A stretch of DNA of 23,880 nucleotides, taken from IMG/VR virus record IMGVR_UViG_3300028571_000116, positions 1 through 23,880 of that record, one strand, 5' to 3'. This DNA is from a virus. Every line of letters begins with the position of its first letter. The first letter of the stretch is position 1. A model generated the notes under the pieces. That model was not told the origin of the DNA. It did not search any database and saw nothing but the letters and a program-made list of their open reading frames with translations. The translations under genes and the position numbers were made by a program. Shown piece by piece: positions 7,363 through 23,880 of the stretch.

Positions 7363-8130
7363 ATGACGATACCTGTAATTGGTACTGCTGTTGTAAATAC
7401 TTCTTATTGGGTGTACAGGTTACTGTATAGTATAGATTATCCTGTAGATACTTTTGTTGTTTTTAATAACAACGGAAGGGGTGAACTAACAGAAGAGCTG
7501 GACCTCTTAAGTAAAGTTCCGCACAAATACATAAATAAAATTGTCGTTTGTCACATGCCCGCGAATGTCGGGTGCTCCGGAGCGTGGAATTTAATCATTA
7601 AATCGTACATGAACGCTCCTTACTGGGTAATTGTTAACCACGACATTATGTTTACGCCCGGTTTACTTCGTTCGATGGTCGAGCGGGCTCAAGATCCAGA
7701 TACCGGTATTGTGCATGGGGAAAATGGAAGTTGGGATTTGTTCCTTTTAAAGGATTGGGTTGTCCAGCGGTTTGGTTTATTTGATGAAAATTTGTATCCT
7801 GCGTACTGTGAAGACATGGATTACGGGATGAGGTTTAAACACTCTGATCTAAAAAGAGAGATGTCCATAGGTAAACCCTATTTCCACGGTGAAACTTCAG
7901 GGGACTATGCCGACGGAAGTCAGACTTGGCGAAGTGACCCCTCTTTAGCTATGGGTATTCATAAAGCACATGAGATGAATAAGCACTATTTACACGCTAA
8001 ATGGAGCCCAGCGTGGCAAAACCATATTGAAGGAGAGGTCTATACGCACCCGTTTAACAACGCAGCTTTACCTCTAGATTTTACTTCTTATGACTTAAAC
8101 TTTGTCCGATCTAAAAATCTAGGTTTTTAA
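7363..8130 (+). CDS. Family 2-like glycosyltransferase (GT-A fold)
   Basis: A 255-residue transferase that moves a sugar from a nucleotide-sugar donor to a glycan or protein acceptor in the cytoplasm. The N-terminal Rossmann-like part has the FNNNGRG loop (34-40). NVGCSGAWN (68-76) is the GT2 signature after the donor-binding strand. NHDIMF (92-97) is in the DxD metal-binding position. YCEDMDYG (148-155) supplies the acidic ED catalytic-base motif. No membrane helix is present. Length is near the minimal GT2 domain. It has its own promoter and is followed one base later by the YkgJ-type gene. Donor and acceptor cannot be read from sequence. It is one of at least five sugar-transfer or sugar-processing genes in this window. 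Confidence 0.92.
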   Translation: MTIPVIGTAVVNTSYWVYRLLYSIDYPVDTFVVFNNNGRGELTEELDLLSKVPHKYINKIVVCHMPANVGCSGAWNLIIKSYMNAPYWVIVNHDIMFTPGLLRSMVERAQDPDTGIVHGENGSWDLFLLKDWVVQRFGLFDENLYPAYCEDMDYGMRFKHSDLKREMSIGKPYFHGETSGDYADGSQTWRSDPSLAMGIHKAHEMNKHYLHAKWSPAWQNHIEGEVYTHPFNNAALPLDFTSYDLNFVRSKNLGF

Positions 8131-13380: not shown

Positions 13381-14553
13381 TCAGTTAACAAGTTCAGTAA
13401 CAGCTTGAGAGAATCCGGCGGCAACTGACTCCCACCTGTATTCAGGTTTTTGAGTCACCTTGTAGCAATCTTCGGCTACTTTCGCGTAGAGAGCTGGATC
13501 TTCATATAACTGAGTTAGTAATTTCTCAGCATGGTCTACATCAATTAGGCCCCTGCCCACTCCCAGATCTTTATCAACAATCCACGTAGAGACGTCGATC
13601 AGCAAGCCCGCTTCTTTCCAGATGTCTTGGCACGACGTGTGGTTGGGTACTACTTGAGGTTTCCTGCAACTGGCATGTTCAAAACTTACAAGACCCCAAC
13701 CTTCGCCGTTGCTTGTGTTAATACCTACGTCGCATGCGTTATAAATCAGATTAAGAAGATCATCTGGCGGCGCACTGATGTAATTGATATCTTGTGAAGT
13801 TAGAACTAAACGGTTTGTAGGGTCGGCACCTTTAAGTTTCATTTCCCTTTCGAACAGGGGGATGATATCCCAACCCATATCTTTTGCTCCCATGTGCAGG
13901 TACAAAAGCGTGTCCGGTTTATTCGCCGCAAAAGCAGCGAAGGCCTTAATTGTTAGGTCAATGTTTTTTCTGGGTTGGTTCCGGTTTGCGTTTAAAACAA
14001 TAAATTTATCTGTGGGGATACCTAATTTTTTGCGGGCCTCGTCGCTGAGCATAGGCTTGAACTTAGAGGTATCGACACCGTGGGGGAGCACACCTAAACG
14101 ACTCGGCGCAATACCGTGAGCAAGAATTCTGTGCGCTTGAGGAATAGTAAAGGTTATTGCGAGGTCCCAATGAGGGATATTTCGGAGCATATCCGTTGGG
14201 TATGCCTCACTGTCCGTCGGAAAATAAGCTATAAATTTAAATTTATGCTTTTGTTTAAAGAACTGAATGCACTCCCAAACTTGATTGACAACCCAAATGT
14301 CATTTAGACATATAAATATGTCTGGTTTTTCTTTTTCAAAAATTTCAGGTAAGCGAGGAATCCCAAAACGGTCTCCGCAGTGCATGTTTGCTGCGGGATA
14401 AATTTTAAAAGGGTATTGGTGAGGGTCTCCGTTGTAGTTTATACCTATTACTGAAACTTCATGATCCTTACTCAGATGTTCTAGTACGCTGTGTGTTACA
14501 CGGCCAAAACCTGTATTAGAACAGGCGTCTCCGTACCAAAGAATTTTTGCCAC
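13381..14553 (-). CDS. Family 4 glycosyltransferase (GT-B fold)
   Basis: A 390-residue retaining glycosyltransferase of normal GT4 length. The N-terminal half opens with ILWYGDACSNTGFGRV (4-19), the acceptor-side glycine loop. The donor-binding half has the RNQPRKNIDL motif (191-200), whose Arg/Lys bind the donor phosphates. The catalytic E-x7-E pair is Glu284 and Glu292 in EGWGLVSFE, followed by ASCRKPQVV. It would build a cell-surface or virion glycan from nucleotide sugar in the cytoplasm. It is the first gene of a reverse-strand pair with the GH130-like protein, driven from the divergent region before the large terminase. Donor sugar is unknown; mannose would fit the GH130 partner but is inferred. 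Confidence 0.95.
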   Translation of the reverse strand: MAKILWYGDACSNTGFGRVTHSVLEHLSKDHEVSVIGINYNGDPHQYPFKIYPAANMHCGDRFGIPRLPEIFEKEKPDIFICLNDIWVVNQVWECIQFFKQKHKFKFIAYFPTDSEAYPTDMLRNIPHWDLAITFTIPQAHRILAHGIAPSRLGVLPHGVDTSKFKPMLSDEARKKLGIPTDKFIVLNANRNQPRKNIDLTIKAFAAFAANKPDTLLYLHMGAKDMGWDIIPLFEREMKLKGADPTNRLVLTSQDINYISAPPDDLLNLIYNACDVGINTSNGEGWGLVSFEHASCRKPQVVPNHTSCQDIWKEAGLLIDVSTWIVDKDLGVGRGLIDVDHAEKLLTQLYEDPALYAKVAEDCYKVTQKPEYRWESVAAGFSQAVTELVN

Positions 14554-18930: not shown

Positions 18931-19764
18931 ATGCTTTTTGACTGTTTTATGTATTTCGACGAGGAAGAGCTCCTCGAACTTCGCGTCGAAATGCTCAAGG
19001 ACATTGTGGATGGGTTTATCATCGCGGATGCGAACCTTACCTTTAAAGGGGAAAGTAAAGATTTTACTTGTGTAAATACAATCCGGAAGTTGGGACTACC
19101 GGAAGACAAAATTCAAGTTTTGCACTGCGAACTACCTCCTGCTGATAGCCACCCAAATCCTTGGGTGCGAGAGTACGCGCAGAGGGATGCACTCGGTGTG
19201 GGTATGAGGATGTGCCCACCAGATTCTGTATTTTTTATCAGTGATGTAGATGAAATCCCCAAACCTTCTTCTTTACTTGAATCCATAAAGGTTGCTAAAG
19301 AAAATCCTGAGTATTTTACTAGGTTGTCCATGGCCTACCTGGCTGGATATGCAGATTTGCAAGTAACAAATCCTAAAACAGGACCTTTAAATTGGCCGTG
19401 CGGGGTAACACTACTTTATGAACACCTAAAGGATAGCATTACACAAATTTACTCTGTTGATCGAATTAAGGTCTTAGGTGACTGTGATGCAGGCTGGCAT
19501 TTTACCTGGATGGGCGATGCGGCTAGGCGTAAACATAAGATTACTTCTTTTTCTCATTGTTATGACAGCATACCTAACGCACACGCTCCCTCCTATAGTA
19601 AGGAAATGTTGGATTTTTTAGACACTTACGAAGCTTCTTCTGGTTCCACAGATCCTCTCGGAAGGAAAGACCATATTTTACAGCCTTATCCTCATGAGCT
19701 TTTACCGAAAGAACTGTTTAAACTAGATAGAGTAAAAACCTACCTCCTTCCGGATAATGGCTGA
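18931..19764 (+). CDS. Family 17 glycosyltransferase
   Basis: A 277-residue protein with a clear GT17 profile: FDCFMYFDEEELLELR at the N-terminus (3-18), VDGFIIADANLTFKGE (26-41), the DxD-type metal site SDVDEIP (104-110) and WHFTWMGD (about 187-194) in the second half. GT17 includes eukaryotic beta-1,4-N-acetylglucosaminyltransferase III and many bacterial and viral homologues; the phage substrate is unknown. No signal or membrane segment is present, so it acts in the cytoplasm. It lies directly before the portal module, and its last 8 bases overlap a small basic-protein gene, so it is co-translated with head genes. Confidence 0.93.
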   Translation: MLFDCFMYFDEEELLELRVEMLKDIVDGFIIADANLTFKGESKDFTCVNTIRKLGLPEDKIQVLHCELPPADSHPNPWVREYAQRDALGVGMRMCPPDSVFFISDVDEIPKPSSLLESIKVAKENPEYFTRLSMAYLAGYADLQVTNPKTGPLNWPCGVTLLYEHLKDSITQIYSVDRIKVLGDCDAGWHFTWMGDAARRKHKITSFSHCYDSIPNAHAPSYSKEMLDFLDTYEASSGSTDPLGRKDHILQPYPHELLPKELFKLDRVKTYLLPDNG

Positions 19765-19942: not shown

Positions 19943-22174
19943 ATGGCGGACACGTTAGGCGTCAGACAACGTTTCAACGAGATACTAGCTGCTGCCCGGA
20001 ATCAAACTCAGGGTAATCAAGCAGCTACTTTGGTCGTTTTGAGCCATCTGCAGCAAATGACGCTGTTGATGATCAAAAAAGGCCTCTTTTTCTACTGTGA
20101 ACAAGACACCTTTCGTGCCCGCTCAAAGTTTTTAAACAGTCTGCTTGAGTTAAATAAATTAGATATTCGTTTTCCTGCGATTATTAGAAGCTTTTTGATC
20201 GACGGGTGTGGGTTGTTTTATTTCCGACCCGATCCAAAACTAAAATATCAAATTTATTTTTTTCCTAAGGATCAATACCGTGTTTACCACGATGTAAACG
20301 GAAATATAAATGAAGTTGTGATTACGTACAGCTATAAAGTGCGTAATTCTAGTTTAGGTCTACCTTCTGACTCGTATGGGCTAAATAATAGGTATGTACG
20401 TATCTCTATTACCGATAAAAATATAACAGAGTATGAAGCAAACACTCAGTTAAGTTTTGAGTTAGAGCCCGGCTCGATTTTAAACCCCAAAACTTCTCGT
20501 CCGAATACTCTTGGTTTTATTCCCGCAGTTGAGGTTTTAAACAAACCTAACGCTAGCGGTACAGAGGGAGAAGGAGATTTTGATCCCTTCATGGAGCAAA
20601 TTGTGCTTCATGACCAGATGATGCGTAACATCGCTAAAAATATTGAGTTCTTTGGTAATCCCACTTTAATCAGTTCTCGCCCACGATCAGACCTTGTAGA
20701 GGCCTCAGACGCCGATCGTACGTTTAGACCTACCATTAGTAGCCAAAGTGGTTTCGGAGGCAGGGATACCCCTTCTACTCGAGTATCAGAGCCTTTTGGT
20801 TCTAACTCCTCGTTAGGTGGCTTACGTGTCCCTCGTATTATTGCAAACGTAGAGCCTAGCGATCGCGTGGGCTACATGTCTCCTGATCCGATTAACGGTG
20901 ACATGAATCGTTATGCCCTTTTATTAAGGGAAGAGATCAGAACTGCATTAGGAGGTGTTGATGAGATTTCAGTCTCTGCTGGTGCGACCGCCACGGAAAT
21001 TAAAGGTTTGATGGGCAGGGCACAAGCCACTGCTTTAGGAAAAAATAAGAGTTTCTTAACATATGGTTTTTGTCGCCTGCTCGAGATGATTATTTATCAT
21101 CAAGAGCAAGTTTTTAGAGAGAGTTTTATTGCTGTAACGGGAATAAAAGTCCCTGTTGAACCTCAAGAGAAAGATGTAGAAAAAGAGAAAAAATATTCTG
21201 TTGATCTAGCGAAATTTGAAACTATAGTTTCAACTTCGATTCAAGAAGCTTTAAACAATAATGCTCTGCCTGAGGGAGTTTTTGGTCTTCCTCCTGATGG
21301 TGATCGGCAAGTTACGTACAGGTTCCAAGGTGATGTTTATGAAGATACAGCGTATGACATAAATCAGAAATCAATTGTTGTCAGAAACCTTCAAGAGCTA
21401 GGTGTGGACAGCGTTGAGGCTCTTAAATACCTCTTCCCGGATAAAACAGATGCTGAACGTTCCGAAATGCTAAAAGGGTTTCCTTTTAGAATGGTTCAAC
21501 AAACACAAAGCGCATTACAACAATTTTTAGTATTATTAACACAGATGTTGCAAACGCCTCATCCGCTAGCGCCGGATCAACCCCTCGGGAGCGATCCACG
21601 CCTTAACTTAACGCCCCTGTTGTACAGGACGTTTGACCACCTTGCACAAGAACTGACTTTCTCGGGTAGTTATGAGCCAGCAGATCCAAGCTTCAATCCC
21701 GAGCCCGGTTTCCCCGGCGGTAGCAGCCTCCCAGGCGGCTCCCCTGGATCAGGGCTCAACCGCCTACCCCCAGTGGGTAACAGCTACCCAGGGGGTACCT
21801 TCGGCGGTTACAGCCCAAGCGCCATCGCAGGGAACACTCCCAACGGGCCCTTCTACCAGCAACCAGTACAACCAGTTTCCGTCAACGTCCTCCCCGTCCA
21901 ACCCATGGGAAGCGGCGATGGGCAGCCTGGAGCGGGTGGTTTCTCGAATGTCCCCGTCCCCCAGCCAGGCAGCACAGTATCCTCAGTACCAGATGGTGCC
22001 GCAGGATACTCAACAGTACAGTCAGAATTTACAAGCCCAACCGTGGCAAACACAAACCCCTACGGTTCCGCAGATCTCGTACAACAACGGATCTACAACC
22101 CAGAGTTCCTATCCGACTTCTACGGCTCAACAACAAACACCCGTCCTCAGCGACGAAACCGCCGCCGTAGTTAA
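19943..22174 (+). CDS. Portal protein with unusual P/G-rich overlapping tail
   Basis: The 743-residue portal forms the dodecameric ring at one capsid vertex for DNA entry and tail joining. The first about 575 residues have the mixed layout of SPP1/T7-type portals: helical start, a wing with FFPKDQYRVYHD (about 107-118), a VEPSDRVGYMSPDP region, then the long-helix part with REEIRTALGGVDEISVSAGATATEIKG (about 330-356) and the crown. Residues about 577-743 are low-complexity Pro/Gly/Ser/Gln sequence ending in a basic RRNRRRS, coded by the same DNA as the next gene. ATG 19943 has a good GAGGAAG Shine-Dalgarno. The tail is GC-richer than the core and is probably an overprinted extension. Confidence 0.92.
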   Translation: MADTLGVRQRFNEILAAARNQTQGNQAATLVVLSHLQQMTLLMIKKGLFFYCEQDTFRARSKFLNSLLELNKLDIRFPAIIRSFLIDGCGLFYFRPDPKLKYQIYFFPKDQYRVYHDVNGNINEVVITYSYKVRNSSLGLPSDSYGLNNRYVRISITDKNITEYEANTQLSFELEPGSILNPKTSRPNTLGFIPAVEVLNKPNASGTEGEGDFDPFMEQIVLHDQMMRNIAKNIEFFGNPTLISSRPRSDLVEASDADRTFRPTISSQSGFGGRDTPSTRVSEPFGSNSSLGGLRVPRIIANVEPSDRVGYMSPDPINGDMNRYALLLREEIRTALGGVDEISVSAGATATEIKGLMGRAQATALGKNKSFLTYGFCRLLEMIIYHQEQVFRESFIAVTGIKVPVEPQEKDVEKEKKYSVDLAKFETIVSTSIQEALNNNALPEGVFGLPPDGDRQVTYRFQGDVYEDTAYDINQKSIVVRNLQELGVDSVEALKYLFPDKTDAERSEMLKGFPFRMVQQTQSALQQFLVLLTQMLQTPHPLAPDQPLGSDPRLNLTPLLYRTFDHLAQELTFSGSYEPADPSFNPEPGFPGGSSLPGGSPGSGLNRLPPVGNSYPGGTFGGYSPSAIAGNTPNGPFYQQPVQPVSVNVLPVQPMGSGDGQPGAGGFSNVPVPQPGSTVSSVPDGAAGYSTVQSEFTSPTVANTNPYGSADLVQQRIYNPEFLSDFYGSTTNTRPQRRNRRRS

Positions 22175-22589
22175 TCACTTTGGTATTGAAGCCCCTGCTG
22201 TTTTAAACCAGTATGCCACTACGCTGGAAGATGCTCTCATTCAGCAAGATAGGGCTCTAAATACTGTGGCCCACAGGGCTCAGGCGATGGAAGTAATTCT
22301 CACCGATCCTGACCAGTTGGCTGACTACACTAACCGCTTCTTTACTGAAGTTTATCCAGTGGATATGGATTCTCCTGCTCGAGTAGAAAACGCTTATCAA
22401 CCTCGTTACGACCAACTACCTGCTGTTCCCGCAGCATCTAGTTCAGCCGGTAACCGCGTGGACCCTGATTCTCAGTGGCAAGGTTTTAGTCAGACCATGA
22501 ACCAAGCGCCTGACCAAGCTTGGCGTTATTTGTCACAAATGAGCCCTGAAGCTATACGTAGCAAGCTCTTGTTTATGGACGCAGGCTAG
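21672..22589 (+). CDS. Scaffold-like head assembly protein overlapping the portal
   Basis: The 305-residue protein reads in the +1 frame relative to the portal. Residues 1-167 are Gln/Ser/Pro/Thr-rich with one ordered island, NPWEAAMGSLERVVSRM (about 78-94). Residues 168-305, outside the overlap, are helical and clearly protein-like (ETAAVVNHFGIEAPAVLNQY, then LEDALIQQDRALNTVAHRAQ). A gene after the portal with a disordered N-terminus and helical C-terminus is the scaffold pattern of podoviruses, so it probably guides capsid assembly (inferred; no sequence match claimed). The ATG at 21672 has no obvious Shine-Dalgarno; a +1 frameshift from the portal is an alternative way to reach this frame. 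Confidence 0.82.
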   Translation: MSQQIQASIPSPVSPAVAASQAAPLDQGSTAYPQWVTATQGVPSAVTAQAPSQGTLPTGPSTSNQYNQFPSTSSPSNPWEAAMGSLERVVSRMSPSPSQAAQYPQYQMVPQDTQQYSQNLQAQPWQTQTPTVPQISYNNGSTTQSSYPTSTAQQQTPVLSDETAAVVNHFGIEAPAVLNQYATTLEDALIQQDRALNTVAHRAQAMEVILTDPDQLADYTNRFFTEVYPVDMDSPARVENAYQPRYDQLPAVPAASSSAGNRVDPDSQWQGFSQTMNQAPDQAWRYLSQMSPEAIRSKLLFMDAG

Positions 22590-22735
22590 TCTAGGTCACG
22601 GTTTCGCTTAATAAACCCCGAGTTAACTTAAAATTAACTTGGAGATAGCTCCTGCTTGACTTTGCTCGATATAAGTAGCTTTACCCCGTGGAATTCGACG
22701 GGTTTGCTATTTGCAAATAGCGAATAGTCAAAGAA
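22590..22735. promoter_or_regulatory. Dyad-rich intergenic region after the scaffold gene
   Basis: Four inverted repeats follow in about 100 bases: AGTTAA/TTAACT (22621-22639), GGAG/CTCC (22641-22652), CCCGT-GGAATTCG-ACGGG (22685-22702) and the perfect palindrome GCTATTTGCAAATAGC (22706-22721). AATTCGACGGG at 22692-22702 repeats exactly the 11-mer at 260-270 and resembles the tmRNA 5' signature. No forward gene fits. It may be a terminator/processing region, a structured RNA or an operator cluster. Confidence 0.5.
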
Positions 22736-22936
22736 TCAGTCAATATATAAGTTTCCGTCTGCGTCCCACGTAAGTAAAGAAGTTAATGAGGAAGCGCAAT
22801 AAGATGAGGTAGAGCAAGTTTTTGTTTTAGAACCGCTCATTAGAGGAACTAATTTTTTAAATTGAATAGATATATAGTCTGACTGTGATTTATAAAGCGG
22901 TTGCGGAACTTGAGGTAAAGAAGTTGAGGGGAACAC
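22736..22936 (-). CDS. Possible small reverse-strand gene (66 aa)
   Basis: A reverse frame from GTG 22936 to TGA at 22738-22736 encodes 66 residues, Ser/Thr/Leu-rich, ending in a strikingly protein-like TWDADGNLYID. Codons are AT-ending like real genes here, and it would fill an otherwise empty 485-base gap. Against it: GTG start, no Shine-Dalgarno, short length and no recognised family. The WDADGNLYI phrase is of the kind seen in phage fibre or structural proteins, so it could also be a remnant. Confidence 0.35.
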   Translation of the reverse strand: MFPSTSLPQVPQPLYKSQSDYISIQFKKLVPLMSGSKTKTCSTSSYCASSLTSLLTWDADGNLYID

Positions 22937-23028
22937 TTGAAGAAAAAAGTTAAAAGTTTAAGAATTATGAAGTTTTATCTTCGTTTCCTGACTTCTTTAG
23001 TCTAAGTTAAATCTAACAAAAACCGAAA

Positions 23029-23056
23029 TACTATTTTTAAAAATAGTAGGTATATT
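23029..23056 (+). promoter_or_regulatory. 20-bp perfect palindrome and -10 before the 136-aa gene
   Basis: TACTATTTTT/AAAAATAGTA (23029-23048) is a perfect 20-bp palindrome. TATATT (23051-23056), a good -10, lies just after it, and the gene starts at 23075. No good -35 is visible; the palindrome occupies that place, which fits an activator or repressor site. Its outer arms ACTAT/ATAGT match those of the 14579-14592 dyad, with wider spacing. Confidence 0.5.
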
Positions 23057-23074
23057 CCAGTCGAGAAAAAACTA

Positions 23075-23518: not shown

Positions 23519-23693
23519 GAGCAAAGCAGGTCTAGCGGGCACGTTTTTTGTCAGTCAGACTTGTTTTTGAGCCGGCAAGTAATTTTTCATGGATTTTGAA
23601 ATTTGAAAAATTGTGAAAAAGCCTTAAGACTACAGCGTTGTCGCCCTCCCTGGGTGATTTATGCTGCTGATGCCTCTTAGTCCCGCACTACTC

Positions 23694-23880
23694 GTGAGCC
23701 TTGATTTTTTAGTAGTAGGTTCTGGTTTATTTGGCGCAACGTTTGCTCGTTTAGCAACAGACGAAGGCTACAAATGTTTAGTAATCGATAAGAACCCTCA
23801 CATAGCAGGCAATTGTTTTACAAGAAAACACGGAGTTATAGACGTACATGAGTACGGACCTCATATTTTTCACACAAGTA
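23694..23880 (+). CDS. glf: UDP-galactopyranose mutase, N-terminal part
   Basis: The frame runs off the window end. FLVVGSGLFGATFARLA is the FAD-binding GxGxxG Rossmann motif, followed by the acidic strand end in LVIDKN, then IAGNCFT and a Y-G-P-H-I-F-H-T stretch, all hallmarks of UDP-galactopyranose mutase. The enzyme converts UDP-galactopyranose to UDP-galactofuranose with reduced FAD, supplying donor for galactofuranose-containing glycans. GTG 23694 is chosen because it leaves the family's usual short N-terminus; ATG 23661 and 23670 are in frame and possible. It supplies a nucleotide sugar that one of the phage glycosyltransferases could use. Confidence 0.92.
   Translation, partial: MSLDFLVVGSGLFGATFARLATDEGYKCLVIDKNPHIAGNCFTRKHGVIDVHEYGPHIFHTS

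Follow-up and report, generated by a model that had tools for sequence, protein, structure and literature searches.

The end of a phage portal gene and the beginning of a second gene, ORF2, share 503 nt of DNA (21672-22174, plus strand) in a viral contig of 23,880 bases (the window), which ends before the capsid gene. The two reading frames are offset by +1, both are open, and both are constrained. Dual coding of this stretch is regarded as close to certain, with the products themselves inferred in the absence of proteomic or ribosome data. The fuller interpretation, in which two virion-assembly genes overlap out of frame and ORF2, most likely a scaffold, is expressed by internal entry, is considered highly probable, again without data of either kind. 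Homologous portal and ORF2 genes, together with the order portal-ORF2-capsid known from relatives, assign the window to the S-EIV1-like cyanophages, and in this group the arrangement appears from comparative sequence evidence to be ancient and kept by selection in both frames.

Geometry and conservation of the overlap

The portal ORF (19943-22174) encodes 743 amino acids and ORF2 (21672-22589) encodes 305. Both are uninterrupted, and the 503-nt overlap claimed in an earlier reading of the letters alone (the sequence-only reading) is exact in its coordinates. Two further claims of that reading were borne out by measurement: the overlap is GC-richer than the DNA upstream (0.62-0.65 versus about 0.37-0.46), which is consistent with the abundant Pro and Gly codons of the portal frame, and the two products have biased, differing compositions. 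The portal tail contains 16% P, 15% G and 13% S and terminates in RRNRRRS, and the N-terminal half of ORF2 contains 17% Q, 16% S and 13% P and includes the NPWEAAMGSLERVV island. Scans of the overlap region for promoters, terminators and Rfam families yielded nothing above chance.

Relatives were collected by scans of IMG/VR, two of which returned at least 600 matches each, and by a scan of genome contigs, which added eleven loci, one of them on a Nodosilinea nodulosa PCC 7104 contig of 792 kb. Clades were assigned by closest query and are designated W (that of the window), E (S-EIV1-like) and M (L146-like), and a locus was considered usable when its portal stop was in view. Among the matches listed, 346 loci were usable, some of them covering the same contig twice; they represent 215 distinct overlap sequences, and the selection tests were restricted to distinct sequences. 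When homologous portal-ORF2 junctions were compared, a check proposed with the sequence-only reading, the +1 frame was found to be open across the portal tail in all 346, in three clades and at portal identities down to about 35%. The overlap measures 467-683 nt in 344 of these loci, and ORF2 begins with ATG in 339 and with GTG in 7 (both counts among the matches listed). At the two loci with short overlaps, single-base sequence faults seem to be responsible: a one-base shift displaces both readings together in one (L367), and a single stop codon lies about 12 nt from the contig end in the other (L231). Outside the 346, one locus (L380) has a 590-nt overlap, and another (L383), from a cyanobacterial genome, has a 344-nt overlap at a portal identity of 33%, with the C-terminal part of ORF2 still recognisable. 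The remaining frame, +2, contains stops over the overlap span in all usable relatives except one, among the matches listed.

S-EIV1-like head genes were also observed in host assemblies, namely the Nodosilinea nodulosa PCC 7104 contig (L377), which carries terminase, portal, ORF2 and capsid genes, and the cyanobacterial genome that harbours L383 (G280). Judging from these two cases, part of the group may be prophages or persist in filamentous cyanobacteria. Further contigs of these phages (L368, L369 and L371-L376) lie in MAGs labelled Euryarchaeota, Rhodobacteraceae, Crocinitomicaceae and Blastopirellula, placements that are probably binning errors.

In a chance test, the portal residues were held fixed, synonymous codons were redrawn, and openness of the +1 frame was scored. 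For the window, this frame survived in about 2-3% of redraws, with a mean of about 3 stops. With codons redrawn from core usage, it was open in 0.3-6% of draws at six of the seven loci tested; the seventh (L330) gave 66% with core usage and 6% with the usage of the overlap. A chance open frame was ruled out by codon redrawing together with the control frames described below, and a sequencing or base-calling error, which had been named in advance as a possible refutation, was excluded by the identical structure of the 215 distinct sequences.

Constraint on the two frames and inferred translation of ORF2

Substitutions were scored by their effect in both frames, using our own script based on the idea of OLGenie. 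Within the overlap, w_portal was 0.38 (0.29-0.50) in clade W, 0.55 (0.41-0.74) in E and 0.56 (0.46-0.68) in M, and w_ORF2 was 0.50 (0.38-0.64), 0.26 (0.21-0.33) and 0.47 (0.39-0.56), respectively; the ranges in parentheses are 95% intervals, all of them below 1. As controls, a spurious +1 frame in the portal core gave w of 0.74-0.82, and a spurious frame over the C-terminal part of ORF2 gave 1.26-1.98. The portal-core control indicates that the method itself yields values somewhat lower than 1, so that the ORF2 values have to be judged against it. Synonymous divergence in the portal frame was 0.47 (W), 0.26 (E) and 0.54 (M) in the last bin before the overlap, and 0.09, 0.09 and 0.21 in the first bin inside it, a 2.5- to 5-fold drop located exactly at the ORF2 start. 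Each frame has conserved motifs of its own: ORF2 strongly retains the NPWE island, and in each of the three clades the part of the overlap that most favours the portal is GSADL (tail residues 708-712; 22064-22078, plus strand). Judged from these substitution patterns, purifying selection at the protein level acts in both overlap frames in three clades.

The main proposal of the sequence-only reading, that a portal tail and a scaffold-like head gene overlap in dual-coding DNA, is upheld by the openness of the frame in all relatives, by the constraint on both frames and by the conserved start codon. The analysis of synonymous constraint that it had recommended came out in its favour, with portal-frame divergence falling at the ORF2 start and both w below 1, and the outcome that would have counted against it, one frame without constraint, did not occur (w_portal 0.38-0.56, w_ORF2 0.26-0.50). 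Nor was any homologue found in which the portal ends near residue 575 and is followed by a decayed tail; a decayed portal tail is ruled out by w_portal below 1 and by the conserved motifs.

It remains conceivable that only a single frame is functional, with the portal unconstrained after about residue 575, or ORF2 starting past the portal stop, and the other frame open through composition. Such an explanation could draw on the low complexity of both products, on the smaller number of stops in GC-rich DNA, and on the record of phage S-EIV1, which has ORF2 only from 59863. However, it is barely tenable in view of the intervals of both w, which exclude 1, the few-percent openness on redrawing in most loci tested as compared with 346/346 observed among the matches listed, and the separate motifs kept in each frame across clades. 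A different alternative, also raised in the sequence-only reading, accepts both frames and links them by a +1 ribosomal frameshift in the portal gene, which would generate a portal-ORF2 fusion, the ATG at 21672 not being the main entry. The +1 offset is what this fusion requires, and a shift at any point inside the overlap cannot be excluded from sequence. Frameshifts upstream of the overlap, by contrast, are blocked by a stop in the ORF2 frame that lies 3-15 nt before the conserved start in nearly all loci. In the window, this is a TGA (21654-21656, plus strand) 15 nt before the ORF2 start, which bars read-in from upstream; among the matches listed, every W locus (192/192) has this spacing of 15 nt, every E locus (70/70) has one of 3 nt, and 81 of the 84 M loci have one between 3 and 15 nt. 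Constraint begins at the ORF2 start codon itself (21672-21674, plus strand; conserved as ATG or GTG), and the portal tail is selected through to its basic C-terminus, which would be absent from any fusion. In addition, AAGGAG stands at Shine-Dalgarno distance before the internal ATG in 70/70 E loci among the matches listed, so that separate initiation explains ORF2 better than a frameshift fusion does. No clear Shine-Dalgarno sequence precedes the internal ATG in the W clade, in which portal starts also often lack one. The fusion is thus unneeded and disfavoured, and we consider it quite improbable; separate initiation of ORF2 at the internal start, inferred from start codons and Shine-Dalgarno sequences, is the simplest reading.

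The portal protein, ORF2 and its putative scaffold role

On the basis of profile matches and predicted fold, the first ORF is identified as a phage portal protein. Its profile matches comprise phrog_20475 (virion structural; E 7e-161), phrog_64 (portal; 9e-8) and phrog_104 (0.0038), and a Foldseek search with the predicted fold returned 78 matches to portals (E<=0.001), T7-like and SPP1-like ones among them, the best being T7-like (E down to 5.5e-10) and cyanophage portals also being matched. The folded core, delimited by PHROG profiles and the predicted fold, comprises residues 1-576 (19943-21670, plus strand); the model is mostly folded to about residue 570 and predicted to be disordered from 571, with short helices near 712-726. 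In this model, the last core helix (residues 557-573) ends where the start codon of ORF2 lies, and the overlap accordingly corresponds to the disordered portal tail, that is, the Pro/Gly-rich residues 577-743 followed by TAA (21671-22174, plus strand), which are conserved through to the basic C-terminal end.

ORF2 (plus strand, +1 relative to the portal) has been modelled with low overall confidence (mean pLDDT 50). The model consists of disorder with a short helix at residues 78-93, a long predicted helix at residues 161-224 (22152-22343, plus strand) and a C-terminal three-helix region at residues 265-302 (22464-22577, plus strand), the best-modelled part (pLDDT about 78-91 over residues 261-300). 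The NPWEAAMGSLERVV island, predicted as a short helix (residues 77-90; 21900-21941, plus strand), has counterparts in S-EIV1 (NPWESAFNKVVNLL) and in the marine clade (SPWQEAFNKLSDSL). Family and profile searches with ORF2 produced no convincing family match and no PHROG scaffold match, and comparisons of hhalign profiles with the scaffolds of T7, P-SSP7 and Syn5 gave probabilities below 1% and no similarity; no sequence or profile homology to the T7 gp9-type scaffold family was seen. A fold search against viral models returned a single significant match, a 133-aa protein whose length fits the truncated S-EIV1 product; beyond this match, the uncertainty of the ORF2 model is too great for fold comparison.

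From its position between portal and capsid genes and its predicted build, ORF2 is inferred to be a capsid scaffolding protein, an assignment that we regard as likely. A major capsid gene (phrog_1357) lies downstream on the same strand in 97 of 98 W and 26 of 26 E loci with enough sequence, and in the M clade a capsid match was obtained in only 26 of 43 loci, mostly 3.7-6.8 kb downstream (all among the matches listed). The predicted build fits a scaffold, within the limits of the low-confidence model and without capsid-binding data. Dual coding may also be real with ORF2 serving as another head protein (internal, core or portal-adaptor), as would suit its lack of homology to known scaffolds and the presence in some clades of further genes between ORF2 and the capsid gene. 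This possibility is unlikely but cannot be set aside: against it stand the conserved order portal-ORF2-capsid, the absence of any other recognised scaffold candidate nearby, and the usual build of scaffolds, which ORF2 shares: across relatives it is about 300-415 aa long, and in the model it consists mostly of disordered and helical segments and carries a helix bundle at its C-terminus.

In the favoured interpretation, a single mRNA would give rise to both proteins. Translation from the portal start would produce the folded core to near residue 573 and continue into a disordered Pro/Gly/Ser tail of about 170 residues with a basic patch at its end, and ribosomes entering separately at the internal ATG (21672), where the folded core ends, would yield ORF2 in the +1 frame. 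The N-terminal half of ORF2 would be disordered and rich in Gln/Ser/Pro, with a short helical island that is conserved, and would be followed by a long helix and a bundle of helices at the C-terminus. With ORF2 as the scaffold, its C-terminal helices may contact the major capsid protein and its N-terminal half may connect scaffold molecules with one another or extend to the portal. The tail of the portal is inferred to be probably directed into the capsid interior. It is a more speculative and rather doubtful proposition that the shared DNA goes beyond compression, locking disordered partner regions of portal and scaffold together and coupling their synthesis on one mRNA, with the scaffold made alongside the portal that it has to recruit, as a device starting head assembly at the portal.

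Several observations concern the neighbourhood of these genes. Glycosyltransferase genes (Pfam family 2, group 1/family 4 and family 17) and the start of a UDP-galactopyranose mutase-like gene, for which only NAD/FAD-binding domains were matched, are dispersed among the head genes of the window (7363-8130; 13381-14553, minus strand; 18931-19764; 23661-23879), and a methyltransferase gene (PF13578; 4687-5304, minus strand) lies inside the structural gene region. About 480 nt after ORF2 (22590-23074) contain no clear plus-strand gene, and endonuclease or other genes occupy this place in some relatives. Some relatives carry group I introns within or next to their major capsid gene (L160:12300-16400, L157:12590-13543 and L330:16217-16516), those of L157 and L160 with homing-endonuclease ORFs; in L160 the capsid match is broken into four parts, and Rfam gives two group I intron matches.

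Reference annotation, precedents and significance

Synechococcus phage S-EIV1 (KJ410740), the only sequenced isolate, was the sole match among annotated phages. Its portal (AHV82224) is 42.5% identical to that of the window over 95%, and its ORF2 homologue 33%. In S-EIV1 the gene order is unchanged and the +1 overlap recurs, being 554 nt long and beginning at ATG 59287, which is preceded by AAGGAG; unlike our reading of the window, however, its record starts the downstream CDS (AHV82225) at 59863, after the portal stop, so that neither the overlap nor ORF2 residues 1-192 are annotated. Judging by this comparison, the ORF2 gene of S-EIV1 is mis-annotated, having been cut short. Gene callers hide the overlap, and the reference annotation lacks the N-terminal half of what is probably a capsid scaffold. 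The major capsid gene of this record (KJ410740 60784-62010; L379:3785-5011) is apparently mis-annotated too: the region is annotated as an antisense CDS (60784-61545) and a C-terminal fragment (61540-62010), and a single open ORF of 383 aa, from GTG 60859 to 62010, contains the major head protein match.

The T7-like module (T7 genes 8-9-10, P-SSP7 and Syn5) likewise has the order portal, scaffold, capsid, and shares the portal fold; its scaffolds, at 265-307 aa, are similar in size to ORF2 and have no sequence similarity to it. Unlike in the window, portal and scaffold genes are about 100-170 nt apart in T7 and Syn5 and overlap by 1 nt in P-SSP7. In the lambda C/Nu3 pair, a protease gene with a nested scaffold gene, two head-assembly proteins share DNA through an internal start, and the overlap is in frame; the lambda products share sequence, whereas the frames considered here differ and their products are unrelated. 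A survey of 12,609 viral genomes reported a median overlap of 15.6 nt in DNA viruses and of 14 nt (IQR 8-26) for +1 overlaps (PMC8903798); the present overlap is of the same same-strand +1 kind but spans 344-683 nt and is lineage-wide. DNA viruses of such genome size seldom carry long out-of-frame overlaps. In the literature searched, the portal/ORF2 overlap was not described; the S-EIV1 paper (PMC4542036) lay outside that search, and an earlier mention there is not excluded.

Which frame is older could not be established. The sequence-only reading had held the portal tail to be the newer product, for which only weak support was obtained: full-length ORF2 is near T7-like scaffolds in size and a tail-less portal would be near T7-like portals, a match that weakly favours a newer tail. 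Codon usage did not polarise the frames (log-odds differ by <=0.05, with the sign varying by clade), and no relative without the overlap was present among those found. The divergent locus L383 has a shorter ORF2 N-terminus and a portal tail of the same kind, which implies that the ORF2 start can move.

A large and environmentally common cyanophage lineage thus keeps an out-of-frame overlap of about 500 nt, with portals down to about 33% identity, and the two proteins that share this DNA probably build the head together. The overlap is a naturally occurring case in which to examine how two disordered proteins evolve when a single sequence encodes both, and the S-EIV1 isolate is available for checking.
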